Positions 251-32,777 of a DNA stretch of 37,541 bases are shown in pieces (position 1 is the first letter of the stretch; each line of letters begins with the position of its first letter). Origin of the DNA: Candidatus Rokuibacteriota bacterium (GTDB lineage Bacteria > Methylomirabilota > Methylomirabilia > Rokubacteriales > CSP1-6); contig QHSL01000010.1 in NCBI GenBank assembly GCA_003220435.1, forward strand, positions 1 through 37,541, written 5' to 3'. Made by a program: the position numbers and the translations under genes. The notes beneath the pieces were generated by a model. The model was not told where the DNA came from, ran no database searches, and saw nothing but the letters and a program-made list of their open reading frames with translations.

Positions 251-1342
251 TCACCGGGCTGCCCACCATTCCCCCTCCAGCCGCGTCAGAAACGCATCCC
301 CTCGATGGAGGGGCTCGAGCAATTCACGCCGTCTCGAATGCACCAGGGCCCACGAGCCAGCCCCCACATGCATGAGGCAGCGCTCGGCCAACAACGTCTC
401 GATCGATCCGGGGTCGAGCCGGCCGGAGACCGCGATGGCGCCTTGTCGCCAGGCGTCATGGAACAGATGCCTGACCACCCCACTCAGCGAACCCTTCTTG
501 GCCCCGAGCTGCACGACCTCGCTCATGCCGGCGGGCTTGAGATAGTAGAGGTACCAGCCGAGCGCTTGATCTGCGGCATCGCGCACCAGGACCTTCCGAA
601 ACTGCCCGCGGCCCTTCTTTTCGGCCAGGATCCCGAAGAGCCACTTCAGTGACTTCTCGTCGTACTCCGGCCGGAGCGCGCTGTCGCGCGAGGCGGCGGA
701 CACACACGCGAGGCATTCACTCTCGCGCAGCTCTTCCGCCGATGCGACTGGCCACGTGGGACGCGACGGCGGCGGCGCCAGCCGGGCGAGGAGCCGGTCG
801 GCCGCGAAACAAAAGGGCGTCAAGGCCATCGCCGCGATCGACCTCACTCCGTGCTGCTTCAAGAAGGACAGCGCGTATCGGCCCGGTCGAAGCGGGCGTG
901 TCCAGCGGACACTGTGGGGGAGCGAAGTGGTGCCGCCCAGTCTCTCCCAGATCGTTCGTGCCGAATCACTGCCCTCGGTGATGGACATCTCTTGCGGGCC
1001 GGAGAAGAACTCCTTGAGGAGCTGCAACCCGGCGCGCCCGCGTGCCCCCGGATGAACCATGAATTGAGAGGAGATCGCGACCTTCAGTGGCGCACCGTCT
1101 CTCACCATCGGCCGCGGGATCACGCCCAAAAACCCCCGAATCCGTCCGTCACCATCCTCGTACACCAGGCTGGGCAGCGCGGGATCGCGCCAGGGGTTGT
1201 TGAGGAACACCGCGGCGAAATGACTCAGGTATGAGTCGAGCCGCCAGGGGACGGCGGACTCGCTCGACCCGAACACCGTGCGGTTCAGCTCGGCCACCTG
1301 TTCCAGGTCGGTGTCCTTCACGAACGGCCGCACGCCGCTCAT
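251..1342 (-). CDS. GNAT-fold acyltransferase-like protein, 363 aa (paralogue A)
   Basis: 363 aa from ATG at 1342. The N-terminal ~115 residues resemble a GNAT domain: an opening 'VRPFVKDTDLEQVAELNRTVFG' type helix (quoted to 20: VRPFVKDTDLEQVAELNRTV), then PSLVYEDGDGRIRGFLGV and a VHP.ARGRAGLQLLKEF helix like an acyl-CoA-binding turn. A C-terminal half contains GWYLYYLKPAG.SEVVQ and ends HRGDAFLTRLEGEWW. Family knowledge: such proteins transfer acyl groups from acyl-CoA or acyl-ACP to amines. Its closest relative in the window is the 363-aa protein at 4708-5799 (same length, same PSLVYED, RPLRP.RYALS and HRGDAF.TRLEGEWW blocks). It lies between a gene relict (7 bp upstream) and the flippase. 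Substrate unknown; a role in N-acylating a sugar or amino acid is inferred. Confidence 0.75.
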   Translation of the reverse strand: MSGVRPFVKDTDLEQVAELNRTVFGSSESAVPWRLDSYLSHFAAVFLNNPWRDPALPSLVYEDGDGRIRGFLGVIPRPMVRDGAPLKVAISSQFMVHPGARGRAGLQLLKEFFSGPQEMSITEGSDSARTIWERLGGTTSLPHSVRWTRPLRPGRYALSFLKQHGVRSIAAMALTPFCFAADRLLARLAPPPSRPTWPVASAEELRESECLACVSAASRDSALRPEYDEKSLKWLFGILAEKKGRGQFRKVLVRDAADQALGWYLYYLKPAGMSEVVQLGAKKGSLSGVVRHLFHDAWRQGAIAVSGRLDPGSIETLLAERCLMHVGAGSWALVHSRRRELLEPLHRGDAFLTRLEGEWWAAR

Positions 1343-1443: not shown

Positions 1444-2199
1444 CTATCGTGCGAGGACCAACAGTCGCCACTTTCCCATCACACGTGCCGCCAGATCTCT
1501 GTGGATCGAGAACAGGATCCGACTCGGCCAGCCGAGGATCCCTCTCGCGGTGAAGCCGAGCAGCTTTCTGGCCAGTCTTCGGGGGTTATTCTTGTTTTCA
1601 TCCCAGACGAATCGCAGAGAATTGGCCTGCCACGTGTACACGTAGTCGATGACCTCGTAACCGACGTCCTTCAGCATCTGAATTGCGACGTCCTTCGTGA
1701 AGTAGTGGACGTGTCCGTAGGCGTCTCGAAACTCGATCAGCTGGCCGAGCAGGACGGTTCGCACCGATATATCCAGCGGGATTTGGATTATTTTGTATTC
1801 GCTCCTCGGCCGTATCTCTCTCAGGAAGCTGAAATAATCCTCCAGATGTTCGAGCACGTCCATGACCAGAATGAGATCGAAGTGCGCGCCTTCCTCCTGT
1901 CGAATGTCCGCCAGTTTGAAATGAAGTCTTTCGTTCGCCCGACGTTGAGCAAGCTCAAAGGCCTGCGGAGAGATCTCATACCCCCAACACGTGCATCCTT
2001 CGTCCATTCCATCCTGTACCAGCCGCAGCATCTCTCCAGCCCCGCACCCCACATCGCAGATCGTCTTCGGGGCAATCCCATTCTTCGCCATCATGCGAAG
2101 AACGTACTTTGCCTTCCACGGGGATTCGTCGGTATGCCACAGCGGGTTCTTCTCGAGGTACACGCCACCCGTGTAGAGTTCTTGGGGCATGCCCGCCAT
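1444..2199 (-). CDS. Class I SAM-dependent methyltransferase
   Basis: About 251 aa from ATG at 2199; a GTG at 2202 directly follows the upstream TAG and an ATG at 2190 is also possible. SAM-binding motif I is seen as ICDVGCGAGEMLRL, motif II as WGYEISPQAFELAQ, and the post-II/III region as FDLILVMDVLEHLEDY, followed by a YGHVHYFTKD segment. This is the Methyltransf_11/23-type layout found in many glycan and natural-product clusters. It probably methylates a small hydroxyl, amine or carboxyl acceptor, but the acceptor cannot be read from sequence. Start-to-stop contact with the FAD oxidoreductase suggests co-translation. Its base composition looks less GC-rich than its neighbours, a possible sign of separate acquisition. 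Confidence 0.85.
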   Translation of the reverse strand: MAGMPQELYTGGVYLEKNPLWHTDESPWKAKYVLRMMAKNGIAPKTICDVGCGAGEMLRLVQDGMDEGCTCWGYEISPQAFELAQRRANERLHFKLADIRQEEGAHFDLILVMDVLEHLEDYFSFLREIRPRSEYKIIQIPLDISVRTVLLGQLIEFRDAYGHVHYFTKDVAIQMLKDVGYEVIDYVYTWQANSLRFVWDENKNNPRRLARKLLGFTARGILGWPSRILFSIHRDLAARVMGKWRLLVLAR

Positions 2200-2202
2200 C
2201 AC

Positions 2203-3423
2203 CTAGCGTTCGATCCTTCTTCGCGCCACCGAGCCCGCGACGCGCCGTGCCGTCGCCCTACACCCCGCGACAAAGCGGTACAGGGGGCCGAAGGCGCGCA
2301 CCGCGGTCAGCCCGACAAAGTACAACCCCGACACGCTGCTCTCGAACCAGGGACTCAGGATTGGAACACTCATATCGGTTTCGATTGCCGCCCGCAGCGA
2401 GGGGTGGATCATCCTCAGCTTGTTGATATCGACCTGGTATCCAGTCGCCAGAATCACGTGGTCGGCTCTCACCTTCCCGCCGTCAGAGATGGTCACGTCG
2501 ACCTTCCCGCCGACCGTCTCCATCTTCACGACCGTCTGGCCTTCGTGCCTGGTCGCCTTGCCGATCACCCGATCCCTCAACCAGTCGGAGGCCGCGGCGC
2601 TGTAATAATTGCGAATGGCCTTGTCTTTGCGATGTTGAGCGAAGCGGTAGAAGAGATAGGGCGCATTCTCCAGAATCCAGTATTTCCAGCCAGGGGCGAT
2701 GCTCGCGTTCGGAGCCAGGATCTGTTCGAACATGCCACGCTCGCTCGCTCGATCGGGAGCCAGCCAGACAATTGGCCGACGCGACACGACGTGGACGGTG
2801 GCCCCAGCCTCGTGCAGGAGCGCGCTGAACTCTATCGCGCTCTGTCCGCCCCCGATGACGACAAGCTGCTGTCCCTCGAAGCGGCTGAAGTCATTGTGAT
2901 CACATGAATGCGAGACCAGTCCAGCAGGCAGACGGTACCTCTCCGGCCGATCGGCATAGTCATAGAGGCCGGTCGCCATGACGACTGCCGCACTCTGTAT
3001 CTTGCGCCCGTCCTCTAACGTCAGCTGAAAGTGATCGTTTTGACGCGCGATCGAGGACACGTAGGTGGCATCGACGTTCGGCACCGCACGTTCCTGGAAC
3101 CAGAGGCCATAGTCGATGAAGGCCTCGATCGGAACGGGGTAACATTTCTCATATCTCGACTCCCTGAAGAAGCGCGCAAACCCAAACTGTCGACGCGGAT
3201 CGGAGAGGTTGGTGGCCCACCAGTGGGAACGCAAAAGCATGCCGTTGGGCATGTGATCACGCCACAGTTCCAACGTCTTGCCGAAGACGGCGACCGCCAG
3301 TCCGCGCTCGAGCAGATGGGCCGCCGTCGAGAGACCGTACGGTCCCGCGCCGACAACCACCGCGTCATATCGCGGCGCAGATGTGGACCGCTGGGAGACG
3401 TGCATTCCCGGTAGAGCACTCAC
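2203..3423 (-). CDS. FAD/NAD(P)-dependent monooxygenase-like oxidoreductase
   Basis: 406 aa. The start is GTG at 3423, overlapping the upstream TGA as GTGA (4-bp overlap), so translation is probably coupled; an internal ATG lies at codon 7. The FAD-binding dinucleotide motif is VVVGAGPYGLS (residues ~23-32). A second Rossmann motif for NAD(P)H is VVIGGGQSAIE (~188-198), and the C-terminal ATGY flavin motif is ILATGYQVD. The arrangement matches the flavin-containing monooxygenase / N-hydroxylase superfamily (FMO, BVMO, ornithine N5-hydroxylase relatives). Likely reaction: NAD(P)H-dependent oxygenation of N, S or a carbonyl on the pathway intermediate. Together with the LLM monooxygenase at 16092 this gives the locus two flavin oxygenases. 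Confidence 0.85.
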   Translation of the reverse strand: MSALPGMHVSQRSTSAPRYDAVVVGAGPYGLSTAAHLLERGLAVAVFGKTLELWRDHMPNGMLLRSHWWATNLSDPRRQFGFARFFRESRYEKCYPVPIEAFIDYGLWFQERAVPNVDATYVSSIARQNDHFQLTLEDGRKIQSAAVVMATGLYDYADRPERYRLPAGLVSHSCDHNDFSRFEGQQLVVIGGGQSAIEFSALLHEAGATVHVVSRRPIVWLAPDRASERGMFEQILAPNASIAPGWKYWILENAPYLFYRFAQHRKDKAIRNYYSAAASDWLRDRVIGKATRHEGQTVVKMETVGGKVDVTISDGGKVRADHVILATGYQVDINKLRMIHPSLRAAIETDMSVPILSPWFESSVSGLYFVGLTAVRAFGPLYRFVAGCRATARRVAGSVARRRIER

Positions 3424-4640
3424 GAGAAGATGTTCCTCGAACGGGACAGTGTTTCCCGAATGACTTTCCCCGCCAAGCTACGCGTGAAATGGGAAGCTGC
3501 TTTGACGGCAGGCAGAGGGTCTCTCCAATCGACATAGTCGTACCGCATCAGTCTGAAACACGAGAGACCAAAGGCCAGGACCGCCTGTACGGGTGGCGCG
3601 ACTCCGGGCCTGCCTCGCTGCTGGAGCGCAGCGATCGTCGTCATGATGTCTCCCCTGAGATCTCGCATCCAGCCCCCAATGCGATAGTCTTCGACCTTAT
3701 CGATGGACCCTCCGGTCGCCCACTGATACAGCAGATAGGGAAAATCGACCCCGCATCGTACGGCGATCTCAACTGATGCGGAGAGCCGCGGGTTGATCTC
3801 CATCAGGTACGGTACATGGTTACTGTCACGCCGGAACTCGACTTCTGAGTAGCCCTCGAGGTCCAGTTCCCGCACAAGCGATTCGGCCTGAGCGCCTATG
3901 TCAGGCGGAACGACAATGCTCTGGCGTAATACCGAATTCCCGCCCAGCGGCGGTTCTGTTCGCTTTGCCCACTGCGCGAAGCGCGCATACATGTTGCCGT
4001 GGGCATACAGAAAACTTACCGCCTCGCGCCTCCCCGAGAGCAGTTGCTGGAACAGTGTGACTCCGCCCCAGCGCGTTAGCTCGGCGACGACCCGACGGGC
4101 TTCATCGGGACTCGCAACGACCCGGGGGACGACGCGCGTTCCCCCTTGTCCATGCCATAACCACGACTCGCAAGGTTTGACGACGGCCGGTAACCCTATT
4201 TCCTTCACCGCCATCGGAACCGCGTCGACCGTGCGAACGACGAGAGCGCGAGGTACGTTGATCCCCAGTCGCTTCGCCACGGCCAAGGTCCGCTCTTTAT
4301 TGACCGCAATGGTCAGCGCCCGTTCGTTCGCCAGGGCAATGCGTACTCGTTGTTCCACGCGAGCGCGATGCTGGCGAAGCAGGGCGATCGTGCCATCATG
4401 CGAGGGGATGAGCACTCGCGCACCTGTACGCTCCAGCAACGGCTCCAGGAAGCCGAGGTAGGCGCCTGTCGTGTCGACAGCAGGGCACAGAAATCCTCGC
4501 TGACACCAGCGCGACGAAAACGCTGGCGTCTCGCTCGAGGTCTCCAATGCCGCCACAGATAACGCCCGCCGACCGAGTGAGCGCACGGTGACAAGCGACT
4601 GCCTCAAACCTGCGTCAAGTACCAGTGCGTCGAATGCCAT
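3420..4640 (-). CDS. ATP-grasp carboxylate-amine/thiol ligase
   Basis: 406 aa. The open frame extends far upstream without protein-like sequence, so I place the start at ATG 4640, which has GGAGAG about ten bases before it. ATP-grasp signatures: lysine in PAVVKPCESWLWHGQGG (K155), the GYSEVEFRRD strand (~263-271), and the Mg-ATP motif LMEINPRLSAS (E281, N283, R285). The N-terminal ~115 residues are a preATP-grasp Rossmann-like domain with the fold of carbamoyl-phosphate-synthase-like ligases (IPSHDGTIALL). Members activate a carboxylate as acyl phosphate and couple it to an amine or other nucleophile. Inference: it joins an amino acid or other acid to the product. It follows the GNAT gene by 67 bp and overlaps the FAD oxidoreductase. 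Confidence 0.85.
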   Translation of the reverse strand: MAFDALVLDAGLRQSLVTVRSLGRRALSVAALETSSETPAFSSRWCQRGFLCPAVDTTGAYLGFLEPLLERTGARVLIPSHDGTIALLRQHRARVEQRVRIALANERALTIAVNKERTLAVAKRLGINVPRALVVRTVDAVPMAVKEIGLPAVVKPCESWLWHGQGGTRVVPRVVASPDEARRVVAELTRWGGVTLFQQLLSGRREAVSFLYAHGNMYARFAQWAKRTEPPLGGNSVLRQSIVVPPDIGAQAESLVRELDLEGYSEVEFRRDSNHVPYLMEINPRLSASVEIAVRCGVDFPYLLYQWATGGSIDKVEDYRIGGWMRDLRGDIMTTIAALQQRGRPGVAPPVQAVLAFGLSCFRLMRYDYVDWRDPLPAVKAASHFTRSLAGKVIRETLSRSRNIFS

Positions 4641-4707
4641 TCGGACCGGACTCTCCACGATCAGCCCGACCCCACCGCGGCGGGGCCAGGTGAACGATGA
4701 GCTGGAC

Positions 4708-5799
4708 TCAAGTGAGGATGAAGCCGACCCACCACTCGCCCTCCAGTCGCGTGATGAAGGCGTCTCCCCGGTGGATGGCCTGGAGCAGGTCCCCTCGCCG
4801 GGAGTGAACCAACAACCCCGGGCCGCCGTCGTGGCGGAAGAGGCAGCCCGCGCGCGTGAGGGCGGGAAAGGCCGCGGGGTCGAGCTGACCGGTGAGCGCC
4901 GTGGCGCCCCCGCGCCACGCGTGGGCGAAGAGGTGGTCGAGGACCGCACCGGCGCAAGCAGCCGAAGCACCCACCTGCACGACCTCGCTCGTCCCGGCCG
5001 GGTTGAGGTAGTAGAAATACCAGCCGGCGACCTCTCCGGAGGGTCGGCGAACAACGACCTTCTGGAAGGCGCCGGCTCCCGGCTTGCTGGCCATCAGATC
5101 GAGCAGCCACTTCGCAGAGTTGCGATCGTAGTGCGGTCGCAGCGACCGGTCGCGCACCACGTCGTCGAGGCTCTCGACGAACGTGTCGACGTCGAGCTCC
5201 TCCCCGGCAAGATCCGACGGCGGGATGCGGAACGGGTTGGTCCGGACGCGCGCGGCCAGCGTGTCCAGGGCACGACAGAAGGGCGCGAGCGCGGACACCG
5301 GCAGCGCTGACAGCCCGCCGCGTCTCAGGGACGACAACGCATATCGCGCCGGACGGAGGGGGCGCAGCCAGCGCACGCCGTAGAACGGCGAGGGCACGCC
5401 CCCGATCGCCTCGAAGATCCGGCGCGACACGTGCGCGCCCTGGGCGAGAACGAGATCCTGGGGGCCCGACAGGAACGCCTTCACGAGCTCGACGCTGACC
5501 GGGGCCGCGCGGCGTCCCGGCTCGATCATGACGGTGTGGCTGACGACGGCGCGGACCGGCTCACCCGCGATCGACATCGGGCGCGGCATGACACCGATGC
5601 AACCCACGACCCGCCCGTGCTCGTCTTCGTACACGAGCGAGGGCAGCGCCTCGTCCCGCCACGGATGGTCCCACAAGACTGCGTGGAGCGTATCTTCGAG
5701 CCAGCCCGGCGGGGCTGTGGACGCCGATCCGAAGACCCGTCGGTAGAGGTCGGCGATCTGCACGATGTCGGCTTGGGCCAGTGGCCGAACGCGTCCCAT
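4708..5799 (-). CDS. GNAT-fold acyltransferase-like protein, 363 aa (paralogue B)
   Basis: 363 aa from ATG at 5799, five bases after the stop of the Wzy/ligase-like gene. It is clearly homologous along its whole length to the protein at 251-1342: both share the PW..PALPSLVYEDE/D.GR opening region, the IEPGRR/VHPGAR segment where a GNAT pantetheine-binding loop would sit, RPLRPARYALS in the centre, GWYFYYLNPAGTSEVVQ, and HRGDAFITRLEGEWW at the end. The GNAT assignment rests on this general pattern, not on a strong motif. Duplicate acyltransferases in one operon usually act on different acceptors or with different donors; here the two carrier proteins and two ligases could supply two donors. 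That pairing is inference. Confidence 0.75.
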   Translation of the reverse strand: MGRVRPLAQADIVQIADLYRRVFGSASTAPPGWLEDTLHAVLWDHPWRDEALPSLVYEDEHGRVVGCIGVMPRPMSIAGEPVRAVVSHTVMIEPGRRAAPVSVELVKAFLSGPQDLVLAQGAHVSRRIFEAIGGVPSPFYGVRWLRPLRPARYALSSLRRGGLSALPVSALAPFCRALDTLAARVRTNPFRIPPSDLAGEELDVDTFVESLDDVVRDRSLRPHYDRNSAKWLLDLMASKPGAGAFQKVVVRRPSGEVAGWYFYYLNPAGTSEVVQVGASAACAGAVLDHLFAHAWRGGATALTGQLDPAAFPALTRAGCLFRHDGGPGLLVHSRRGDLLQAIHRGDAFITRLEGEWWVGFILT

Positions 5800-5804
5800 C
5801 GTGG

Positions 5805-7109
5805 TCAGGCAGCCTTCAGGTGCTTGTCATCGCCGATGACCCTCACCGCCACGGCCATCCCGGCCACGTAATAGAAGTACATGTGGTAGCCGACCGGGTG
5901 GAAGAGCGCCCCGACCGAGAAAGCGACGAGGCTCACCTGGACCGCTTCCGCGAGACAGAAGAGCTCGCGCAGAGCGGGCACTCCCACAACGCGCCGCTGG
6001 ACCCGGCGGACGGACTTGACGCACTCCACCAAGAGGAGCCCGAACAGCAAGAGTCCGGGGAGCCCGAGCTCGACCGCGTACTCGAGGTACACATTGTGCA
6101 CCGCCGTCCAGTAGCCTTGACGCGTCTGGTAGAGGGCGAGCGCGTTCATGCCGACGCCGGCACCGGTGACCGGGTTGTCGAGCACGAGGCGCACGGCATC
6201 GCCCGCATCGTTCCACCGCAGCTTGGCCGAGCCGGTCGGATCGGCATCGATGTGGGTGATGTTGCTAATCCGGTCGAGATAGCCGGCCGGAAGGAATGGC
6301 AGACAGGCGAGCACGGCGAGCACCGCCAGGCATGCCCAGATACGCTCCGGCCGCCGGCCGACCTTCCAGACGTAGACGGCAAAGACGGTCGCGAGGGTCA
6401 CGAAACCCCCGCGCGAGAACGTGACGATGACGGCGGCGACATCGGCAGCGACCACGGCGAGCAGGAGGTTGCGGATCGGCCGCCGCTTGGCGGTCAACGC
6501 CAGCGCTACGCTCAAGGGGATGAGCAGGTTGAGCATCAGAGCCAGGTCGTTGGGGTTACCGGTGAGCGGAGCTTGGTAGCCGAGAATGCGTTTCACGGGC
6601 GGCCCACCAGGAAGGAAGGCCCCGTCGAGGAAGTTATCCATCGCCGTCAGCGCCAGGGGAACCGACATCAGGGTGAGCGCCCACGCGAGCTGGTGGAGCC
6701 TCCTCAGCGTCGACACCGTGTTGGCCAGGAGCCAGAAGATCGCCAGTGATCTCAAATAGAAGCCGAGGAACTCGACGCTTCCTCCCGGCCAGACGGACAG
6801 GGGCACCGTGCCCACCGCCCACGCCAGCAGGCCGGCGGCGATCCCTATCTCGCGGGTGAGGACCGTGAGCGGCTCACGGCGCATGACCCGGTCGACGAGG
6901 TGGCCGATCAGAGCCGTGGCGCCTGTCACCAGCGCCAAGCGGAGGGGGACGAGCACCGGGAACTGCTCCTGGGGAGCCACCAGCAGGATGAAGGAGAAGG
7001 CCGTCAGCGCCCAGAAGGGAACGGCGCTCCGCTCGGCCTCGGGCTCGATCGCGATGGCCGGAGGGCCGGTGTCGAGATCAGGGCGCCACCATGGGCGGCT
7101 CACTGACAT
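5805..7109 (-). CDS. O-antigen ligase / Wzy-type polymerase-like membrane protein
   Basis: 434 aa from ATG at 7109, which overlaps the upstream ACP stop by one base (TGATG). It has about ten to twelve hydrophobic segments. The Wzy_C/WaaL family signature is plain: SRGGFVTL (~residue 200) at the end of a membrane helix, a long periplasmic loop, then AVHNVYLEYAVELGLPGLLL. The conserved Arg and His (R of SRGG, H of HNVYLE) are the positions needed for glycan ligation or polymerisation in this family. It acts on undecaprenyl-linked glycan in the inner membrane, facing the periplasm. With the flippase at the far end of the operon it indicates a Wzx/Wzy-type export route. Ligase and polymerase cannot be told apart by sequence alone. 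Confidence 0.85.
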   Translation of the reverse strand: MSVSRPWWRPDLDTGPPAIAIEPEAERSAVPFWALTAFSFILLVAPQEQFPVLVPLRLALVTGATALIGHLVDRVMRREPLTVLTREIGIAAGLLAWAVGTVPLSVWPGGSVEFLGFYLRSLAIFWLLANTVSTLRRLHQLAWALTLMSVPLALTAMDNFLDGAFLPGGPPVKRILGYQAPLTGNPNDLALMLNLLIPLSVALALTAKRRPIRNLLLAVVAADVAAVIVTFSRGGFVTLATVFAVYVWKVGRRPERIWACLAVLAVLACLPFLPAGYLDRISNITHIDADPTGSAKLRWNDAGDAVRLVLDNPVTGAGVGMNALALYQTRQGYWTAVHNVYLEYAVELGLPGLLLFGLLLVECVKSVRRVQRRVVGVPALRELFCLAEAVQVSLVAFSVGALFHPVGYHMYFYYVAGMAVAVRVIGDDKHLKAA

Positions 7110-7408
7110 CAGCGTGTGGCCATCGAAGAGCCGCCGCCGCGGCCGGGCTGGGCGGAGCTGGAGGCAACGACCTTGCTGATGCCGTTGATGGTCGTAAAGT
7201 CCTCGCTCATGAGGACGTCCTCGTCGACCTGGACGTCGAACGTGGATTCGGCGAACGTGACCAGTTGCACAAACCCGACCGAATCCACAAAGCCGCACTC
7301 GAAGAGGTGCGCGTCCCGCGTGAACATCGGGTCGTTGTCTGCGACCTGAAACTCTGTACGAATGAACCGTTCGATCGCCTCGGCAATACTAGTGGGCGAG
7401 AAAGCCAT
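7109..7408 (-). CDS. Acyl/peptidyl carrier protein (ACP 2)
   Basis: 99 aa, start ATG at 7408, 20 bp inside the 3' end of the asparagine-synthase-like gene. The attachment motif FVDSVGFVQLV places the phosphopantetheine serine at S43; helix I is IAEAIERFIRTEF and the helix II-III region is FDVQVDEDVLMSEDFTTING. The C-terminus carries a ~15-residue Ser/Gly/Arg-rich tail. Carrier proteins of this kind, found next to AMP-forming ligases, hold an acyl or aminoacyl thioester. Its position directly after ligase, aminotransferase and amidotransferase suggests it carries the substrate of those enzymes. Confidence 0.88.
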   Translation of the reverse strand: MAFSPTSIAEAIERFIRTEFQVADNDPMFTRDAHLFECGFVDSVGFVQLVTFAESTFDVQVDEDVLMSEDFTTINGISKVVASSSAQPGRGGGSSMATR

Positions 7409-8771
7409 CCGTGCCGACCCTCGTTGGAAACATGGAGAGTGAACGATAGACGCCCCCATGGATGAACGTGCTGAGAAAGGCGTCGTTGTCGATACCGAAG
7501 GCCTGCCGGAACGTCAGCCGCAACCAGTCGGCGTCGCAGCCGGACTCCAGCAGAACCGGGAGAATGCCGGTAATGTCGCGGGACGTCCCGATCTGCGCTC
7601 GCACCTTGGTTCGGGCGAATATCCAGTCGGGCAGCAGATCGCCGGCGATGGCCCGGGCCAGGTTCTGCTTCGAGTCCTCGTGCGAGACAAGGCGGATCGG
7701 CAGTTCCAGCAACACATCGGCGAGCAGGCCGTAGGGCTGGATAATGTCGAGCCCGTGTCGCCCGAAGACTCCGACCTCGCGATCGCCGGCATTGAGACCA
7801 CGGATCAATGCCCGCCGCAGAGCTCCTTGATCGACCTTGGGCAACGAGTAGTACTCTCGCCCCCGATAGACGACGGGGGAATAGTCGGCGACGAACTCAT
7901 TCATCAAGTCGCCGGTCAGAACCAGTGCCGGGGTGTCATCCCCTGCTCGCGCCAGATCGTCCGCCATGGCGCGACCCAGCAGCTCGTTGACGATGGCGCA
8001 GTGGACGTTGAAGTCGCGCCAGTCCTGCCCGTAGACGAGGGCGTCGTGGACCGCGTCCAGCACGTCACGCCTGGAGGCGGTCACCAGGCGTACCGGAATG
8101 TTCAGGTCCCGCGCTAACCGACGCGCGCTGGTCGCGTCTTCGCTGACCTCGTCGCCATTCTGGCTGAAACAGTAGGTATACGCCGTGAGGTCGCGAAAAT
8201 GCCGGGTGGCCAGCGCCGCGATCAGACCGCTGTCCTGGCCACCCGACAGGCACAGAAGGATCCTTCGGGAGTGGAACTGATTCGCCAGCCTGGCAAACCA
8301 CGCTTCCAAGTGCCCCCGGATCGCGGCGGCCTCCTTGTCCAGGGAGCAATCCCCACGGGCGTCGCCGGTCTGCGCCGTGAAGTACCGAGACGACGCAAAG
8401 GTCCGACGGTGGAGGTCGATCTCCACACGGTGACCGGCCGGGACCGAGTAGATGACCTCACACGGAACGCCTCGTCTGACGAGGTCGATGAGGTAGTTGG
8501 CGATGGAGACCCGCCCGGAGTGGTGGACCGCGAAGAAGAGCTTGTTGATGCCCAGGGGATCGCGCACGAGCGTGACTCGGTTGTCGGCGACCTCCGCCAG
8601 AGCGAACTGCCCGCGCAGGAGCTTCAGCGGCAGGACCCCTGCCGGTCCAGGCTCGAGCTGCAAGGACGGCCGAAAGGCGTCGCCCGCCCAATAGAAGTTC
8701 CGGATCCGCAGCGAGGACTCGAGGCCGAGGCCCTCCATCGTCCACGCGGATCCGGTCTGCCCACGGATCAT
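7389..8771 (-). CDS. Asparagine synthase-like amidotransferase / beta-lactam-synthetase-like enzyme, no glutaminase cysteine
   Basis: 460 aa. The start is ATG at 8771, overlapping the aminotransferase stop as ATGA; a second ATG lies 11 codons in. The C-terminal synthetase domain has the ATP-pyrophosphatase loop CLSGGQDSGLIAAL (SGGxDS at 176-181). The N-terminal part retains late pieces of the class II glutaminase fold (VTLVRDPLGINKLFF, VPAGHRVEIDL), but the protein does not begin with Met-Cys and no catalytic N-terminal cysteine is present. Known relatives without the cysteine (beta-lactam synthetase, carbapenam synthetase) adenylate a carboxylate and form an amide without glutamine. Inference: this enzyme forms an amide bond on the carrier-bound or free intermediate rather than releasing ammonia from glutamine. 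Confidence 0.8.
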   Translation of the reverse strand: MIRGQTGSAWTMEGLGLESSLRIRNFYWAGDAFRPSLQLEPGPAGVLPLKLLRGQFALAEVADNRVTLVRDPLGINKLFFAVHHSGRVSIANYLIDLVRRGVPCEVIYSVPAGHRVEIDLHRRTFASSRYFTAQTGDARGDCSLDKEAAAIRGHLEAWFARLANQFHSRRILLCLSGGQDSGLIAALATRHFRDLTAYTYCFSQNGDEVSEDATSARRLARDLNIPVRLVTASRRDVLDAVHDALVYGQDWRDFNVHCAIVNELLGRAMADDLARAGDDTPALVLTGDLMNEFVADYSPVVYRGREYYSLPKVDQGALRRALIRGLNAGDREVGVFGRHGLDIIQPYGLLADVLLELPIRLVSHEDSKQNLARAIAGDLLPDWIFARTKVRAQIGTSRDITGILPVLLESGCDADWLRLTFRQAFGIDNDAFLSTFIHGGVYRSLSMFPTRVGTDGFLAH

Positions 8772-9958
8772 GCGTTGAGGACCTCTCGTTCCCTTACGGC
8801 TAACGCCCGCTCGAAGACCGGCAAGGCCGCGAGCAATGATTCCGATCGCGCTGTAACCGACACCCGAAAATATCCTTGCTCGTGAAAGAGCGCGGAGGGG
8901 AGGACCAGCACCCCGTGCGCGGCGAGCCGTTCGGCAAATTTGACATCGTCCGCGATGGGCGCCTTCACGTACACGAAAAACGTCGCGCCGGCATCGCATA
9001 CCTCGTAGCCGAATGCCTTCAGCTTGCCGCGCACCGCCTCCTGGCGGTCGGCGATCACCGCCAGAGGTGGCCGATAGTCCAGGAGCCGGCAGACCGCCCG
9101 CTGCATCAGGGTTGTGGGCGTGCAAAATCCCGTGACCCTCGTGCAGCGCTCCAGCTGGCGTCTCAGCGCCTCCCGCTCCGGCATCCGAGGCGAGACGGCC
9201 ACGTAGCCGATGCGTTGCCCCTGCAGGAAGAGCGCCTTGCCGAACGAGTAGACGGTGAGGCTGCGATCGTAGCTCGACAGAGGGCTGTGGAACTCCTGCA
9301 GACTCCAGATCAAGTGTCGATGAACCTCGTCACTGATCAGGTAAACGGGCGCGCCGAACAGCTTCTCCGCCGAGGTGAGCAGCGCCGCCAGCTCCTGGAT
9401 CTCTTCGCGCGAGTACACGACGCCGGTCGGGCAGCCGGGGTGACTGAACACGATGCCCCGGGTCCGGTTGTTCACGGCCCGGCCGATGGCCGACAGATCG
9501 AAGTGCTTGTCATCCCGGCTCCCCACGAAGCGGATCGAAACGCCGAGATTCCGGAGGTAGAGCGGGTAGTCGAGCCAGCACGGCGTCACGACGATGACCT
9601 CATCCGCTGGCCCGAACAGGGTTCGGAAGGCGACGTTGAGCGCGGCCATCGCCCCCGGGGTCATGATGACGTCGCCGAACGTGAACGGCAGGCCGTATTC
9701 CTGGCTCAGCTTCGAAGCGATCAGCCGTCGCGTCATGGTCCGGCCGCCGAACGGCGTGTACTGGAAGCCGAGCTCCTTCTCTTCGTCGATGGCCAGCCGC
9801 AACGCGCGCCGGACCTCGTCGTCGGGCCCATCGGCGGGATTCGCGTAGGAGAGATCGATGAGACCCCGGCCGAATCGACGCCGTGTCGCAGCGCACACTT
9901 CGTCGAATCGCTCCTGAGGCCCGAGCAGGGCCTCAAGATCGCTGATGGTGTTCTTCAT
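8768..9958 (-). CDS. PLP-dependent class I/II aminotransferase
   Basis: 396 aa from ATG at 9958 (a GTG at 9964 is also in frame); the 5' end overlaps the ligase gene by 26 bp. Fold-type I landmarks are in order: GFQYTPFGGRTMTRRLIA, HPGCPTGVVYS (the family's NP.NPTG site with changed residues), SDEVHRHL with the pyridine-binding Asp210, and the Schiff-base lysine in SFGKALFLQGQRIGY (K241). The family transfers an amino group from an amino acid to a keto acid or aldehyde. The His-Pro-Gly-Cys replacement of the usual Asn-Pro region suggests a non-standard substrate. Context points to production or removal of an amino group on the compound activated by the adjacent ligase. Confidence 0.88.
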   Translation of the reverse strand: MKNTISDLEALLGPQERFDEVCAATRRRFGRGLIDLSYANPADGPDDEVRRALRLAIDEEKELGFQYTPFGGRTMTRRLIASKLSQEYGLPFTFGDVIMTPGAMAALNVAFRTLFGPADEVIVVTPCWLDYPLYLRNLGVSIRFVGSRDDKHFDLSAIGRAVNNRTRGIVFSHPGCPTGVVYSREEIQELAALLTSAEKLFGAPVYLISDEVHRHLIWSLQEFHSPLSSYDRSLTVYSFGKALFLQGQRIGYVAVSPRMPEREALRRQLERCTRVTGFCTPTTLMQRAVCRLLDYRPPLAVIADRQEAVRGKLKAFGYEVCDAGATFFVYVKAPIADDVKFAERLAAHGVLVLPSALFHEQGYFRVSVTARSESLLAALPVFERALAVREREVLNA

Positions 9959-11465
9959 AGGCACGCTTGATCCGGACCCGATCGGGCTTGCCCGAGGTCG
10001 TCTGGGGAAATGCCTCGAGCCGCCAGATGTCTCGGGGCCTCAGATATTGCGGCATTTCACGCTTACAGAACTCGGCCAGCCGCTCCTCCGAAAAGGTGGC
10101 GGGGTCCTTCGGCGCTACCGCGATCACGATGTCCTGCTCGACCTCGTTCACGCTGACCGCGAAGGCCACCACGTTCGCGACCAGATCCGACTCGAACACC
10201 CAGTGCTCGACCTCGTCGGGGCTCACGCGAAACCCCTGGGCCTTGATCAGCTGGTCCCGGCGACCGACGAAGTAGAGATAGCCCTCGGCATCCCGCTTGA
10301 CCAGATCCCCCGAAAAGACCACCGTTTCGACGCGACCTCCTCCAGCCGCCGGCAGCGGGTGCGGTCGGAACGCTTTGGCCGTGCTCTCCGGGTCGCGCCA
10401 GTAGCCCATCGCCACGGTCGCCCCGCGGTGAACGAGCTCACCGGTCTCGCCCGCGCCGCAGAGTCGCCCCTCGTCATTCACCACGAGGATCTCGACGTTC
10501 GGGATCGCCTTGCCCATCGAGGTCGGTCGCCCGTCCACCTGGTCTGGCGGCAGGTAGGTCGATCGGAAGGCCTCCGTCAAGCCGTACATGAGGTAGACGC
10601 TCACGTGGGGATGCGTGCCGCGGATCCGGCGCACCACGGGTTCCGGCAGCCGGCCCCCGGTGTTCGTGATGTAACGCAGATGGGGAAACGCAAGACGGGT
10701 GAAGGGCGAGCGGTCCTCCGTCAGCTGGAGCCAGAGCGTGGGAACTCCCGCCATTCCCGTGACTTTCTCCCGGCGAAGCGTGTTGCAAACGTCTGGCGGG
10801 AACGTCGAGCGTTGGATCACGAGGGTCCCTCCCACCAGGAGGGCCCCGAGCAGTTGATTGAGGCCGTAGTCAAAGCTGAACGGGAGCAGGCTGATCAGGA
10901 CGTCCCGCTCTGAAAGCCCGAGATAATCCGCCACGATCTGGGCGCCCGCGACGAGGTTGGCGTGACTGACCATCACGCCCTTCGGGAGCCCGGTGGACCC
11001 CGAGGTGTAGATGATCAGCGCCAGATCGGCGCCGATCGTGGATGGGGGCGAGCCCACGGTGGCCAGAGCTTTGGTTTCGTCCACGCAAATGATCCGGGCC
11101 CTGTCGATCGCGGGATCCGGGACGTACAGCATTTGCCGGCTGTCGGTGAGGAGCAGAGACGCCTGGCTGTGCTCCAGGATGTAGTTCACCTGCCGGGGGC
11201 GCAGCGCCTCGTTGACGATGACCGCGACGCCGCCGGCAAAGTATGTTGCGAAGAGCGCGATCACAGCCTCGACGGACCGGCGCAAGAAGATCGCGACGCG
11301 GTCACCCCGGGTCAACCCCGCCTCTTGCAACAGACTCGCGTACCCGAGCGACTGCTCGAGGAGCTCGGCGTAGGTCATGCGCCGTTGGCCGTCGACGACA
11401 GCCGGCTTTTCCGCCACGCTGCCGCCGTGGTGTCGTTTCAGGATGTCAGCGACGGTGTACACCAT
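9933..11465 (-). CDS. AMP-forming acyl-CoA/acyl-carrier ligase (ANL superfamily)
   Basis: 510 aa from ATG at 11465. Core motifs: P-loop LIIYTSGSTGLPKGVM (~150-165), LPFSFDYGLNQLLGA, YGLTEAFRSTYLP, VFSGDLVKRDAEGYLYFVGR with the hinge aspartate region, and the C-terminal lysine in TTSGKPDRVRIK. Length is complete for the ANL family. The FSFDYGLNQL segment recalls the acyl-CoA ligases linked to exosortase/EPS loci, but this is memory of a family pattern, not a search result. Role: adenylate an acid and load it on CoA or on carrier protein 2. It precedes the aminotransferase and amidotransferase and overlaps the former. Confidence 0.85.
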   Translation of the reverse strand: MVYTVADILKRHHGGSVAEKPAVVDGQRRMTYAELLEQSLGYASLLQEAGLTRGDRVAIFLRRSVEAVIALFATYFAGGVAVIVNEALRPRQVNYILEHSQASLLLTDSRQMLYVPDPAIDRARIICVDETKALATVGSPPSTIGADLALIIYTSGSTGLPKGVMVSHANLVAGAQIVADYLGLSERDVLISLLPFSFDYGLNQLLGALLVGGTLVIQRSTFPPDVCNTLRREKVTGMAGVPTLWLQLTEDRSPFTRLAFPHLRYITNTGGRLPEPVVRRIRGTHPHVSVYLMYGLTEAFRSTYLPPDQVDGRPTSMGKAIPNVEILVVNDEGRLCGAGETGELVHRGATVAMGYWRDPESTAKAFRPHPLPAAGGGRVETVVFSGDLVKRDAEGYLYFVGRRDQLIKAQGFRVSPDEVEHWVFESDLVANVVAFAVSVNEVEQDIVIAVAPKDPATFSEERLAEFCKREMPQYLRPRDIWRLEAFPQTTSGKPDRVRIKRAYEEHHQRS

Positions 11466-11498
11466 TCGTTCGGTTCGGTTGGTCTCGGTCTTCGACAG

Positions 11499-12716
11499 CT
11501 AGCGATGCGCGGATTGGATGTCGACGGAGGCCAGCTGCGCCAGCACGGGACTGGGAGAAAATCGAGGACCGTGCTGCCGCGCCCAGCTCGCCAACTGCCC
11601 GACGATCTTGTCGCTGCCGACACGACGGGCGTACTCCAGCGGTCCACCCTGCGGCTGCGGCCACCCAAGGCCCAGGACCGCACCGAGATTTGCATCCTCG
11701 GGCGAGGAAACAATTCCCTCGGCGAGGCAGTGACCGATCTCGTTGATCATCTGCCAGATGGGACGGGTGGAGACCTCCGTCGGGCCGGAAATCCCGTTCG
11801 GGCTCGATCCGATCAAGGGGTAGACCCGGGCGTCGACCGCGCGGCCTTCAGGGTCGAGGTAGAAGCCCTTCGCTCCGTCGCGGTGGCTGCGCCCATAGCC
11901 CAGATGACCCGCGTCCAGGACCGGCCACAGGCGTTGGATAGATTCGACGCGTTCCCCGAGATGTTCGGAGATCGAGTCATACACGCCCCGGAGGATCTCG
12001 ATCCCGACCGCGTCCATCAGGCGAAACGGGCCCATGGGCCAGCCGAAGGCGCGCATCGCGCCGTCCACCGCCTCGATGGAGGCCCCCTCGCTCACCAGGG
12101 CGATCGCCTCGTTGAGGTACACCAGCAGGACCCTCGTCGTGAAGAAGCCGGGCCTGTCTCGCACGAGGAGCGGCACCTTGCCCTGCCAGGACGCCATCGC
12201 GAGCGTCCGTTGCAGCGCGCGCGCGCTCGTCACCTCGGAGGGGGCGATCTCGACGAGCCGATAGCGGTGGGCGGGCCAGAAGTAGTGGGTGCCGATGACG
12301 CGGTCGGGCCGGCGGGCGGCCGCGGCAATCCGCGTGATCGGGATCGACGACGTATTGCTGGTGATGAGGCAATCGGGCGAGACGAACCGTTCGATGGCGG
12401 CGAGCACCTCTTGTTTCGTCCGGACGTCTTCGGCTACAGACTCGACGACACATTCCACCCCGTCAAGGTCCGCGTAGCTTGGGGTGAGATGAATGTTGTG
12501 CAATCGGGCTTCGGCCTCGGCCGCGCAGATGCGCCCGCGCTCGACATCCGACGTATAACTGAGCGAAAGCATATCCGCGGCACGCCGGACACCTCCCGGG
12601 CGCGGTGCGACGACGACGACCGTGGCATCGAGATCCGAGAGCAGCCGCGCGATGCCCGATCCGACGGTGCCGGCCCCGACGACTCCAAACCGGCGGGCAT
12701 GGCCCCTATCGGTCAT
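11499..12716 (-). CDS. 3-hydroxyacyl-CoA dehydrogenase family protein
   Basis: 405 aa from ATG at 12716, overlapping the ketoacyl synthase stop by 11 bp. The NAD-binding motif is FGVVGAGTVGSGIARLL (~9-25). Catalytic-region motifs are SNTSSIPIT, GTHYFWPAHRYRLVEI (the family's GMHFFNPVH with the active His) and RDRPGFFTTRVL before the C-terminal helical domains (AIDGAMRAFGWPMGP-type segment, NEIGHCLAEGIV). Family members oxidise or reduce the 3-hydroxy/3-oxo position of acyl thioesters. Here it probably reduces the beta-keto product of the KAS III next door, giving a 3-hydroxyacyl group; direction is inferred. It has two 3HCDH C-terminal repeats, as in full-length FadB-type or PaaH-type enzymes. 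Confidence 0.9.
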   Translation of the reverse strand: MTDRGHARRFGVVGAGTVGSGIARLLSDLDATVVVVAPRPGGVRRAADMLSLSYTSDVERGRICAAEAEARLHNIHLTPSYADLDGVECVVESVAEDVRTKQEVLAAIERFVSPDCLITSNTSSIPITRIAAAARRPDRVIGTHYFWPAHRYRLVEIAPSEVTSARALQRTLAMASWQGKVPLLVRDRPGFFTTRVLLVYLNEAIALVSEGASIEAVDGAMRAFGWPMGPFRLMDAVGIEILRGVYDSISEHLGERVESIQRLWPVLDAGHLGYGRSHRDGAKGFYLDPEGRAVDARVYPLIGSSPNGISGPTEVSTRPIWQMINEIGHCLAEGIVSSPEDANLGAVLGLGWPQPQGGPLEYARRVGSDKIVGQLASWARQHGPRFSPSPVLAQLASVDIQSAHR

Positions 12717-13737
12717 GCCACCCGTTTCCCTTGTAGTCGTACCACCGGTACGTCACGGCACCCCAGGCCATGCCCGCCCCGACGGTGGGCATGACGAGCC
12801 AGTCACCGTCGCGGAACTTTCCTTGCTCCAGCGCGACCGGAATCGAGGCGGCAGCGATGTTGCCGGTGTGCGGGTACGTCATGACGAACTTTTCGATGTC
12901 GAGGCCGAGGCGCTGAGCGATAGCGCGCAAGATGCCGGCCGATGCCTGGTGGGGGACCACCCACGCGATGTCGTCGAGCGTCAGGCCCGAGCGCTTCAGC
13001 GCCTCCGACGTACAGAATGCGGCGCGATCAACCGCCCAGGTATTGATCTCGGCGAACATGAGGTGCAGGTAGTGGAGACCTTGATCGAGCATCTCCTGAT
13101 CGAACGGCCTCTTGCCGCCGCCGCCCGGGACACGGACATAGTGGCCCAGGTGCCCGTCCGATCCGGTGACGAAGGCTCGAACGCCGTAACCCGTGTCCGT
13201 TGGCTGACGGTGAAGCACCACGGCGCCGGCGCCGTCACCGAACACCGTGAGCGGCATGAATTTCCGGGGATCACACAGCCGGGACAGCGTGTCGGCGCAA
13301 ACCACGAGAGCGGTTTCATAGCGGTGCGCGTCGAGAAGGCCGCAGGCGACGAGCAGGCTGTCCAGGAATCCGGTGCAGGCGGAGTCGAGCTGGATGACCT
13401 TGGCCGTCGCGCCAAGATTCGTTTGCACCATCATCGCGGCTTGCGGCAGGCGGCAATCGTTGGTGATGGTGGCCATGACGATGACGTCGACGTCTCCGGG
13501 GTCCAGTCCCGCATCGCCGAGGGCCCGTCGGGCCGCCACCGTCGCCATGTCCGACGTGCACTCATCGGGGCGAGCCCAGTGACGTGACACGGCGCCATGC
13601 CGGGACCGCGCCCACTCGTCGAGGCTCACACCTCCCACCCGGGCACGGTCGTAGTCCACGTCCATCGCTTCGAGATCATCGTTGGTCACGATGCGCTCGG
13701 GCAGATAGCTTCCGATGCCCACAATGATGTTGCTCAT
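12706..13737 (-). CDS. Beta-ketoacyl synthase III (FabH-like)
   Basis: 343 aa from ATG at 13737, with a strong Shine-Dalgarno (AGAAGGAG, eight bases upstream) that fixes the start. Thiolase-fold catalytic triad: Cys121 in LDSACTGFLDSL, His263 in VPHQASAGIL, Asn293 in HTGNIAAASIPVAL. KAS III enzymes condense an acyl-CoA starter with malonyl-ACP; some relatives instead transfer acyl groups to other acceptors. Adjacent ACP 1 (3 bp upstream) and the 3-hydroxyacyl-CoA dehydrogenase (overlapping) make a dedicated short-chain acyl-building set. This is a second, pathway-specific copy rather than the housekeeping fabH, since no fab genes surround it. Confidence 0.93.
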   Translation of the reverse strand: MSNIIVGIGSYLPERIVTNDDLEAMDVDYDRARVGGVSLDEWARSRHGAVSRHWARPDECTSDMATVAARRALGDAGLDPGDVDVIVMATITNDCRLPQAAMMVQTNLGATAKVIQLDSACTGFLDSLLVACGLLDAHRYETALVVCADTLSRLCDPRKFMPLTVFGDGAGAVVLHRQPTDTGYGVRAFVTGSDGHLGHYVRVPGGGGKRPFDQEMLDQGLHYLHLMFAEINTWAVDRAAFCTSEALKRSGLTLDDIAWVVPHQASAGILRAIAQRLGLDIEKFVMTYPHTGNIAAASIPVALEQGKFRDGDWLVMPTVGAGMAWGAVTYRWYDYKGNGWHDR

Positions 13738-13740
13738 GCG

Positions 13741-14013
13741 TCAGCTCCTTCTCTCGGCGAGCTGCGTGGCACCACTGCCATTCAGGAGGAAGGCGGCGAT
13801 TCGTTCGACGGATCTGAAGTTGTCGATCTCCACCTGGTCGAGCGTGATCTTGACCCCGAACTCCTTCTCCAGGTAAAAGACCAGCTCCACGAAACCCAGC
13901 GAGTCCAGCACGCCGGTTTCCAACAGGTCCGTCTCCGGCGACGGGATCTCGAGGTGAAGACTTTTCAGGAACCAGTCGGCGATTCGTCGCTGGACAGCAC
14001 CCGGGTCGGACAT
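13741..14013 (-). CDS. Acyl carrier protein (ACP 1)
   Basis: 90 aa, ATG at 14013. Phosphopantetheine site LDSLGFVELVFYLEKEFG with Ser38; helix I RRIADWFLKSL, helix III NFRSVERIAAFL. It is a standard type II ACP and, unlike ACP 2, has no long tail. It lies between the GNAT gene (stop 14016) and the KAS III gene, so it is the likely partner of the KAS III and the source of acyl groups for the adjacent GNAT. A holo-ACP synthase is not in the window. Confidence 0.93.
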   Translation of the reverse strand: MSDPGAVQRRIADWFLKSLHLEIPSPETDLLETGVLDSLGFVELVFYLEKEFGVKITLDQVEIDNFRSVERIAAFLLNGSGATQLAERRS

Positions 14014-14015
14014 TC

Positions 14016-14528
14016 TCAGATTTCCTTGTGCTCGGACGCGAGGAGATCGAGCCACAGGCGGTCGTACGCACGGCCGTCGATGTAGTGACACTGGCGTTGC
14101 CGGCCGATGATCTTGAAGTTGAGACGCAGCGCGATTCCGACCGAGGGATTGGGGGGCTGCGTGTCGACGGCCCAGCTATTCACCGCATGGAGGCCGAGAT
14201 CGCGAAAGATCAGCGTGAGCATCTGGGCTGCCGCCCGGGTAGAGTACCCCCGGCCCCGAAAGCTCTTGTCGCCGGCGACGAACCAGAACCGCCCCGTCTT
14301 GAAGGTGCGATTCACAGAGTCGAGGCCCGCGACTCCGATCGGGGTGCCGTCATCGGAGGTCCACACGCGTAGGAAGTTCGTGTCGCGCTGGGTCATGATC
14401 TTGAGCCACTCCGGGCTGACGATCTGCTTGCCGTCGCCGAAGTCCAGCCACTGGTAGTTCTCTTTTTGGGCCAGCCAGCCCGCGACCAGATGCAGGAGCT
14501 CAGGACTGTCGATTGGCTTCAGCTGCAT
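14016..14528 (-). CDS. RimJ/RimL-like GNAT N-acyltransferase
   Basis: 170 aa from ATG at 14528, overlapping the adenylation gene by 29 bp. Residues ~65-85 (PIGVAGLDSVNRTFKTGRFWF) form strand 4. The acyl-CoA pyrophosphate-binding turn is seen at DKSFRGRGYSTRAAAQMLTL. A conserved asparagine region (HAVNSWAVDTQPPNPSVGIA) and a RLNFKIIGRQRQCHYIDGR tail follow. This pattern fits RimJ/RimL or PseH/FlmH-like N-acyltransferases, which acylate amino-sugars or protein N-termini. Position between the adenylation enzyme and ACP 1 suggests acylation of the amino group of the activated amino acid or an amino-sugar, with ACP or CoA as donor. Confidence 0.85.
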   Translation of the reverse strand: MQLKPIDSPELLHLVAGWLAQKENYQWLDFGDGKQIVSPEWLKIMTQRDTNFLRVWTSDDGTPIGVAGLDSVNRTFKTGRFWFVAGDKSFRGRGYSTRAAAQMLTLIFRDLGLHAVNSWAVDTQPPNPSVGIALRLNFKIIGRQRQCHYIDGRAYDRLWLDLLASEHKEI

Positions 14529-16119: not shown

Positions 16120-17162
16120 TTCGAAACCTCGAGAGCTCGCTGAAACGTGAGCATCGTGTGGTCCAGGTCCTCCGCGGCCGCGGGAACGTCCAGGATGAAC
16201 GTCCGGTAACCGACGTCGAGGTAGCCCGACAATTCTTCCGCGACCCGGTCGTAGCTCCCCACCAGGTAGGGACACATGGTCTTGTAGTTCTGGAAGGGCA
16301 CGAGCCAGTACGGCCCCTGCCCGTCTCCGTTCCCCATGTCCGACAGCTGCTTGTGCCAGACGGAGTCCGAGACCTTCATGGCCAGCTGATGGACGAGCTG
16401 ACCCTTGCGGTCCTCGGGGAAGCGCGCCCGGGCCACGCCCCAGGCCTCCTCGTCGCGCTCGCGACTGATGATGCCCACGCGAATCCCGCGCGCGAGCACG
16501 CCAGCATGGCTGCGACCCTGATAGTCCCGCGCCGGCTTCGGGTATTCGATGGCCGTCGCGCCGATGGCCCGAGCCGCCGTCAGGCCCGCCTCCGACGAGC
16601 TCGAGACGAAGATGCCGGGTAGGAGGTCCCTGTCCAGGGGCGGCGACAATTTCAGATTGACCGCCTTGTAGAATTCGCCGTCAGCGCTCACCGGCGAGCC
16701 GCCGGCCAGCAGCCGCGTGATGATCGTCGTGTACTCGGTGAGCCGTTCGTACCGTCGATCGTGCGGCGTCGTATCGTTCAGCGCGGTCAAATCGTTCTTG
16801 AAGCCGCCCGCCACCATGTTGAGGTATATCCGTCGCCCGTAGAGATACGCAAAGGTTGTGATCATCTTGGCGACCGTGTAGGGGTGCATGTACACCGGCT
16901 GCACGGCGACCAGCGGGCACAGAGACTTCGTGTTCTGGATGATCACGTGCGAGACCAGCCAGGCGTCGACCTGCGAGTTGTCGGAATAGACTAGAATCCC
17001 GCGGCAGCCGGCGCGCTCGCTCCACCGGGCGACCTCGGCGACATGCTGGCCGTGCACGTCTCCCGCGGCGCCGCTCGAGGGCGGGCAGGTGGAAAAAACC
17101 TCGATCCCGTCATGTGCGCCGTTCATCGGATGGGCTTCGCCCCCTTCGGTTCGTGGCTTCAT
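16092..17162 (-). CDS. Luciferase-like (LLM) FMN-dependent monooxygenase
   Basis: 356 aa from ATG at 17162; an ATG at 17126 (MNGAHDGIEVFSTCPPS) fits the family's usual N-terminus and is an alternative. The TIM-barrel LLM pattern includes WSERAGCRGILVYSDNSQVD, VAVQPVYMHPYTVAKMI, GRRIYLNMVAGGFKNDL, RYERLTEYTTIITRLL and GIFVSSSSEAG (phosphate-binding strand). These match SsuD-like flavin oxygenases, some of which occur inside NRPS/PKS clusters. It uses reduced FMN from a separate reductase, not seen here. As the first gene of the tight train, followed by an overlapping adenylation gene, it is probably a tailoring oxygenase for the product. Confidence 0.88.
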   Translation of the reverse strand: MKPRTEGGEAHPMNGAHDGIEVFSTCPPSSGAAGDVHGQHVAEVARWSERAGCRGILVYSDNSQVDAWLVSHVIIQNTKSLCPLVAVQPVYMHPYTVAKMITTFAYLYGRRIYLNMVAGGFKNDLTALNDTTPHDRRYERLTEYTTIITRLLAGGSPVSADGEFYKAVNLKLSPPLDRDLLPGIFVSSSSEAGLTAARAIGATAIEYPKPARDYQGRSHAGVLARGIRVGIISRERDEEAWGVARARFPEDRKGQLVHQLAMKVSDSVWHKQLSDMGNGDGQGPYWLVPFQNYKTMCPYLVGSYDRVAEELSGYLDVGYRTFILDVPAAAEDLDHTMLTFQRALEVSKCPSYSKTG

Positions 17163-21981: not shown

Positions 21982-22007
21982 TTATTAGGAAGAGTTATTA
22001 GGAAGAG
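21982..22007. repeat. Perfect 13-bp tandem duplication at the response-regulator 3' end
   Basis: TTATTAGGAAGAG occurs twice without spacer (21982-21994, 21995-22007). It straddles the stop codon of the minus-strand response-regulator gene. With one copy the protein would end ..GALPNK; with two it ends ..GALPNNSS, so the duplication changes the last residues only. Confidence 0.9.
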
Positions 22008-22842: not shown

Positions 22843-22848
22843 CGCGCG

Positions 22849-32728: not shown

Positions 32729-32777
32729 CTGGACGAGAGGCGCGACCTGCCGTGTCGTGCTATCCCTGTCAGTACCA

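Follow-up and report, generated by a model that had tools for sequence, protein, structure and literature searches.

The window analysed here, a 37,541-nucleotide stretch of a contig of Candidatus Rokuibacteriota bacterium, carries on its minus strand a gene for an AsnB-family synthetase of 449 amino acids (7389..8738; PF00733, 57.6 bits), here called AsnBx, whose start was set by its homologs. The gene lies between those for a stand-alone acyl/peptidyl carrier protein (7109..7408, minus strand; PF00550, 4.9e-06) and a class I/II PLP aminotransferase (8768..9964, minus strand; PF00155, 1.9e-40), beyond which stands an acyl/aminoacyl-AMP ligase (9933..11465, minus strand) that resembles TIGR03098 with 557.9 bits, under the cut-off of 592. 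The initial annotation had remarked on the neighbouring aminotransferase and carrier; Pfam confirms both, and the tie between the genes holds across loci. Relatives of AsnBx are rare. The protein is present in three of the 95 genomes of the window's phylum, at the window itself and at two loci referred to as L008 and L009, on one Kitasatospora plasmid (43.8% identity over 96% of the length), and in one SAR11 single-cell genome (29% identical). Outside the phylum the search comprised one single-sequence pattern scan of genome contigs, 385 genomes from the class of the SAR11 genome and 397 from its family, and plasmids and phages; the genomes of that class and family yielded no further AsnBx. 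Since the SAR11 protein, used as the query against plasmids, retrieved the Kitasatospora copy as its sole match, the five members belong together.

AsnBx is always found with a small carrier protein, and mostly in surface-sugar gene clusters, at the five loci. The order AMP ligase, aminotransferase, AsnBx, carrier is kept in four of them (window, L008, L009 and Kitasatospora), that is, in two genera of the family to which the window belongs and on a plasmid of an actinobacterium. An ortholog of the aminotransferase (63-64% identity) occurs in exactly the three of 95 genomes with AsnBx; after these, the best matches fall to 33-35%. TIGR03098 is the best NCBIfam match for the ligases of all four cassettes (462-558 bits against the cut-off of 592), and their FSFD motif aligns with amino-acid adenylation domains, which suggests an amino-acid substrate. 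The phosphopantetheine serine of the window's carrier lies in the sequence FVDS (7280-7282), and the DS motif is kept at all five loci.

The fifth locus, in SAR11 (L007, 7871-13206), has as direct neighbours a GNAT-family gene, AsnBx, an ordinary AsnB of the glutamine-dependent kind, a carrier and a DUF2334/deacetylase. The rest of this possibly incomplete genome yielded no ortholog of the ligase or of the aminotransferase; it does contain an unrelated AMP ligase. An AsnBx with a carrier and without the orthologous ligase and aminotransferase is the main puzzle of the data set and counts against the reading that we prefer below. It would fit an enzyme that adenylates an acid and hands it to the carrier thiol, giving a thioester rather than an amide, and other N-type ATP pyrophosphatases, such as LarE, do take sulfur nucleophiles (review PMC6594144). 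Such carrier loading by AsnBx appears very improbable, as a ligase is already present in four of the five cassettes, and the SAR11 genome, perhaps incomplete, has its own AMP ligase.

The AsnBx reading frame is a real gene on the minus strand. About 80 invariant columns are common to the five homologs, which come from distant groups, the third codon position is the most diverged in every pair, and GC3 is like that of the neighbouring genes; the homologs, the invariant residues and the codon-position divergence rule out a chance reading frame or a pseudogene. A phage or defence gene was likewise rejected, with no relatives in phages or viral contigs and no PADLOC match. The frame as first annotated began at an ATG at 8771, which is preceded by a plausible ribosome-binding sequence (GAGAGG) and would give 460 amino acids up to the same stop at 7389. 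As the predicted start, the ATG at 8738 is better matched to the homologs, with 8771 as a possible alternative; neither yields Met-Cys, and the region upstream of 8771 is aminotransferase coding sequence in a different frame. The L008 ortholog has an in-frame stop 11 codons ahead of its start, MLESLLRVRN, and the L009 and Kitasatospora copies begin at the equivalent residue. The question raised in the initial annotation, whether an upstream cysteine had been missed, is thus answered in the negative, because the stop and the equivalent starts leave no room for a cysteine-bearing N-terminus.

The synthetase loop of the ATP-pyrophosphatase domain had been described as intact, and indeed the PP-loop SGGQDS occupies residues 165-170 (8229..8246, minus strand) in the translation and in the homolog alignment, and is invariant across the five homologs save for its variable fourth position. 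The N-terminal catalytic cysteine is absent from all five members, and so are the glutaminase blocks of the RHRGP and NGExYN types according to motif searches, whose patterns are simple, some ordinary AsnBs also failing the RHRGP pattern. The start of the PP-loop falls at residue 147-165 in the five members, whereas it falls at 228-267 in ordinary AsnB proteins and at 248 in a CarA ortholog. The N-terminal domain is about 65-120 residues shorter than that of AsnB, and what survives is its second half (GQFALAEV..RDPLGINKLFFA..). The earlier observations that the protein does not begin with Met-Cys and that the first glutaminase blocks are shortened were therefore correct and can be extended: the motif survey and the homologs indicate that the glutaminase function is lost, and about the first half of the N-terminal domain is gone. 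An ordinary AsnB was ruled out by these motifs together with the score against the AsnB equivalog model TIGR01536 (54.7 bits, cut-off 267.1). Judged by its sequence, AsnBx is a distinct branch of the AsnB family without the portion that draws nitrogen out of glutamine.

We then compared the active-site residues with those of AsnB, CarA and beta-lactam synthetase. Beta-lactam synthetase has its catalytic Tyr in the motif GYGxD, together with a partner Glu and a Mg-binding Asp. The segment GDLMNEFVADY of AsnBx (residues 276-286; 7881..7913, minus strand) aligns with the GEGSDE-type motif of AsnB (GEGSDELTQGY in the human protein), GYGADIPLGGM of beta-lactam synthetase and GYGSDLLFGGI of CarA. 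Its Asp277, an Asp in all members, occupies the position of the Glu of AsnB and the Tyr of beta-lactam synthetase, an acidic residue being a feature also of many AsnBs. Asn280, again the same in all members, takes the place of the Mg-binding Asp of the AsnB motif GxGxDE, while Glu281 and Tyr286, invariant in the five members, align with the AsnB-type Glu-Tyr pair. Near the position of the beta-lactam synthetase Glu, where the alignment is gapped, AsnBx has the acidic segment DREVG (D319-E321). The catalytic Lys378 of the RxK motif (7605..7607, minus strand) is invariant in all five members and aligned with the Lys of AsnB, CarA and beta-lactam synthetase. In PesC, an enzyme resembling AsnB, the Y368F variant is inactive and E363A is impaired, the pair being needed for carboxylate activation (PMC13060819), and by its five-residue spacing this pair would map onto Glu281 and Tyr286 of AsnBx. 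Finally, Arg241 replaces in the alignment the Asp of the AsnB motif ETYD, an aspartate-holding residue, so that a substrate other than aspartate is expected.

These residues bear on two of the possible roles. The Asn280 found in every member in place of the Mg ligand, together with the reduced N-terminal domain, would suit a protein that is no longer an active synthetase but a scaffold for the carrier or the ligase; this has a very slim chance indeed, given that the PP-loop, Lys378, Glu281 and Tyr286 are invariant in five deeply diverged members. An enzyme that makes a primary amide from a carrier-bound or free acid, with ammonia taken free or from another protein, is unlikely but a serious candidate. 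The motif GDxxNE...Y, with its acidic residue and Glu-Tyr pair, is nearer to AsnB than to the lactam-forming enzymes, PesC can use ammonia as well as glutamine (PMC13060819), and in SAR11 an ordinary AsnB adjoins AsnBx. On the other hand, the scan of the cassette proteins recognised none that would be a glutaminase in its own right, and the ammonia reading is further opposed by the replacement of the aspartate-holding residue.

The initial annotation had compared the loss of the glutaminase with that in beta-lactam and carbapenam synthetases, which would make AsnBx a candidate for intramolecular ring closure, forming a lactam from an amino acid or a carrier-bound amino acyl group. In a Foldseek search, the AsnBx structure model, built from four sequences without the Kitasatospora plasmid homolog (pLDDT 66.8, pTM 0.75), indeed matched beta-lactam synthetase first (1mc1, E 6.5e-16) and shared its PP-loop fold, but human ASNS (3.5e-15) and CarA (2e-13) followed with E-values that, for this model, are too near one another to decide family membership. 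CarA was the top match of a single-sequence PDB search. In synthetase-domain trees the five members form one clade with 100/100 support, on a stem of about two changes per column. This clade is not nested among ordinary AsnBs; neither do the trees join it with the beta-lactam and carbapenam synthetases, and in the AU test a union with these has p 0.50 and one with human-type AsnB p 0.33. Kinship with the beta-lactam synthetases thus has the top structural rank in its favour and the tree topology against it, with a joint clade not rejected. Ring closure could also draw on the lost Cys1 and on an amine provided by the aminotransferase. We nevertheless consider it quite unlikely, since Asp277 stands where GYGxD has its Tyr, the Glu-Tyr pair of amidating enzymes is retained, and no clavam or carbapenem genes were found nearby among the proteins scanned. 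Furthermore, the claim of an identical loss does not hold: beta-lactam and carbapenam synthetases keep a full-length, dead N-terminal domain, whereas that of AsnBx is halved and not just inactive, and the Asp277 and Glu-Tyr residues oppose the claim as well. The genome from which the window comes encodes a further AsnB-like protein (L023, G000:C9:91989-93125), which sits on a long tree branch; its motif, GYGGDEW, has a Tyr as in beta-lactam synthetase, and a search of its open frame found no MCGI start.

The surroundings of the cassette are those of a polysaccharide locus. An O-antigen ligase/Wzy-like protein (5805..7109, minus strand; PF04932, TIGR03097-like) is encoded next to the carrier, and the window also holds Wzz-like, glycosyltransferase and sulfotransferase genes. 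Two neighbouring sulfotransferase-family proteins (31967-34250, minus strand) suggest a sulfated product. A methyltransferase, a FAD-dependent oxidoreductase and an ATP-grasp protein (ATPgrasp_Ter), encoded downstream of the cassette (1444-4661, minus strand), are possible further tailoring enzymes, and a sensor histidine kinase of the MASE1 type, encoded together with a response-regulator-like protein (21985-24483, minus strand), is a possible regulator of the locus. Upstream of the cassette lies a second carrier module (11499-17162, minus strand) with genes for a luciferase-like monooxygenase, an adenylation domain, a GNAT, a carrier, a FabH-like synthase and a 3-hydroxyacyl-CoA dehydrogenase; the same order recurs in L009 (34-5760, 69-88% identity) and does not stand beside the L008 cassette. 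We take the adenylation domain, carrier and luciferase-like monooxygenase of this module to resemble butirosin side-chain genes.

Candidates for an acyltransferase and for an enzyme that prepares its acceptor are found in the same regions. A tandem-GNAT protein (4708..5799, minus strand; Acetyltransf_9, sub-threshold), which we propose as the acyltransferase from carrier to amino sugar, has orthologs in L008 and L009, where it adjoins the carrier; in the window it is nearby. A low-confidence model of this protein retrieved N-myristoyltransferases and a tandem GNAT with Foldseek, and its profile weakly matches an aminoglycoside N-acetyltransferase. The GNAT-family gene adjoining AsnBx in SAR11 showed weak kinship to a tandem-GNAT profile built without that sequence. 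The window encodes a second, paralogous tandem-GNAT protein (251..1342, minus strand), and there are likewise two paralogs in the L009 region (5783-6844 and 11164-12249) and one in that of L008; two copies possibly correspond to two acceptor positions on the polysaccharide. A polysaccharide deacetylase gene stands ahead of the ligase gene on the Kitasatospora plasmid and behind the carrier gene in SAR11; at the three cassettes from the window's phylum, none was observed alongside. On visual inspection the Kitasatospora deacetylase protein seemed to have a GNAT-like C-terminal half, for which neither a profile comparison nor a PDB search returned anything, and this half plays no part in the argument.

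Among known systems, the beta-lactam synthetases (1jgt/1mc1) and CarA (1q15) are, like AsnBx, AsnB-family PP-loop enzymes without the glutaminase cysteine, and differ from it in having a full-length N-terminal domain and the GYGxD Tyr, and no Glu-Tyr pair. The beta-lactam and carbapenam synthetase pathways are not known to be carrier-bound. AsnB (1ct9; human ASNS, 8sue) shares with AsnBx the PP-loop, the catalytic Lys, the Glu-Tyr pair and the second half of the N-terminal domain, whereas AsnBx has no Cys1, RHRGP or NGExYN, and has Asn for the Mg-binding Asp and Arg for the ETYD Asp. On this sequence comparison we classify AsnBx within the AsnB family, as a novel variant, and not as a beta-lactam synthetase.

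With respect to gene context, the closest parallel is with the sets of an exosortase-A-associated ligase (TIGR03098), a type III PLP decarboxylase and a carrier, which share with the AsnBx cassettes a related ligase, a stand-alone carrier, a PLP enzyme and a polysaccharide setting. Ligases on rhizobial plasmids are 43-45% identical to the cassette ligase, and in polysaccharide loci on plasmids of rhizobia, Aureimonas and Paracoccus a related ligase is accompanied by a type III PLP decarboxylase and a carrier, the Sinorhizobium meliloti locus also including a deacetylase. Where those sets have the decarboxylase, the AsnBx cassettes have a class I/II aminotransferase and AsnBx, and we infer that the cassette is a variant in which these two replace the decarboxylase. 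No literature on a ligase, carrier and deacetylase route in exopolysaccharides was found. In butirosin synthesis the side chain is transferred to an amino sugar, and no AsnB-family enzyme is known in its BtrI/BtrK pathway. BtrK, a decarboxylase with the fold of the type III PLP enzymes, acts on carrier-bound glutamate (PMC7857480). That route resembles the AsnBx cassette as a functional analogy, with no orthology claimed, in that an amino acid is remodelled on a stand-alone carrier.

Taken together, our preferred reading, to which we give a little less than an even chance, is that AsnBx is an amide synthetase of AsnB type, without glutaminase, that belongs to a carrier-protein cassette in a locus for surface polysaccharide. 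The AMP ligase would charge the small carrier with an amino acid or an acid resembling one, and the aminotransferase would set or move the amino group on this acid before or after loading. As expected from its family, the PP-loop domain of AsnBx would adenylate a carboxylate and couple it to an amine, giving an amide on the carrier-bound group; because the glutaminase is lost, the amine would come from a donor other than glutamine. The tandem-GNAT enzyme would then move the finished acyl group onto an amino sugar of the polysaccharide, which the deacetylase, where present, would have freed for acyl transfer. It is the gene neighbourhood that favours action on a carrier-bound group, and AsnBx probably links an acid with an amine as a step in building a chemical decoration of the polysaccharide. 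This reading draws on the loss of the glutaminase with an intact PP-loop, the fixed gene order, the co-occurring aminotransferase, the conserved carrier Ser, the FSFD ligase, the GNAT neighbours and deacetylases, the rhizobial ligase-carrier-decarboxylase sets, BtrK and the kept Glu-Tyr pair. Asn280 in place of the Mg-binding Asp, and the cassettes of the window's phylum with no deacetylase seen beside them, weigh against it. In a bolder form, which we regard as somewhat doubtful, AsnBx would represent a new functional class, a half-domain synthetase whose direct substrate is a stand-alone carrier. It would either make an amide of the acyl group tethered there or load the carrier, and would so build a novel amide-linked decoration of surface polysaccharides from a cassette spread among distant phyla.

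Few AsnB-family enzymes without a glutaminase are known, and the best-studied ones are antibiotic makers. If our reading is right, a separate loss of the glutaminase, tied to carrier and polysaccharide genes, would widen the chemistry of the AsnB family. It would also suggest that the ligase, carrier and PLP-enzyme sets of polysaccharide loci are exchangeable units for building side chains, and would point to an undescribed acyl decoration of bacterial surface sugars.
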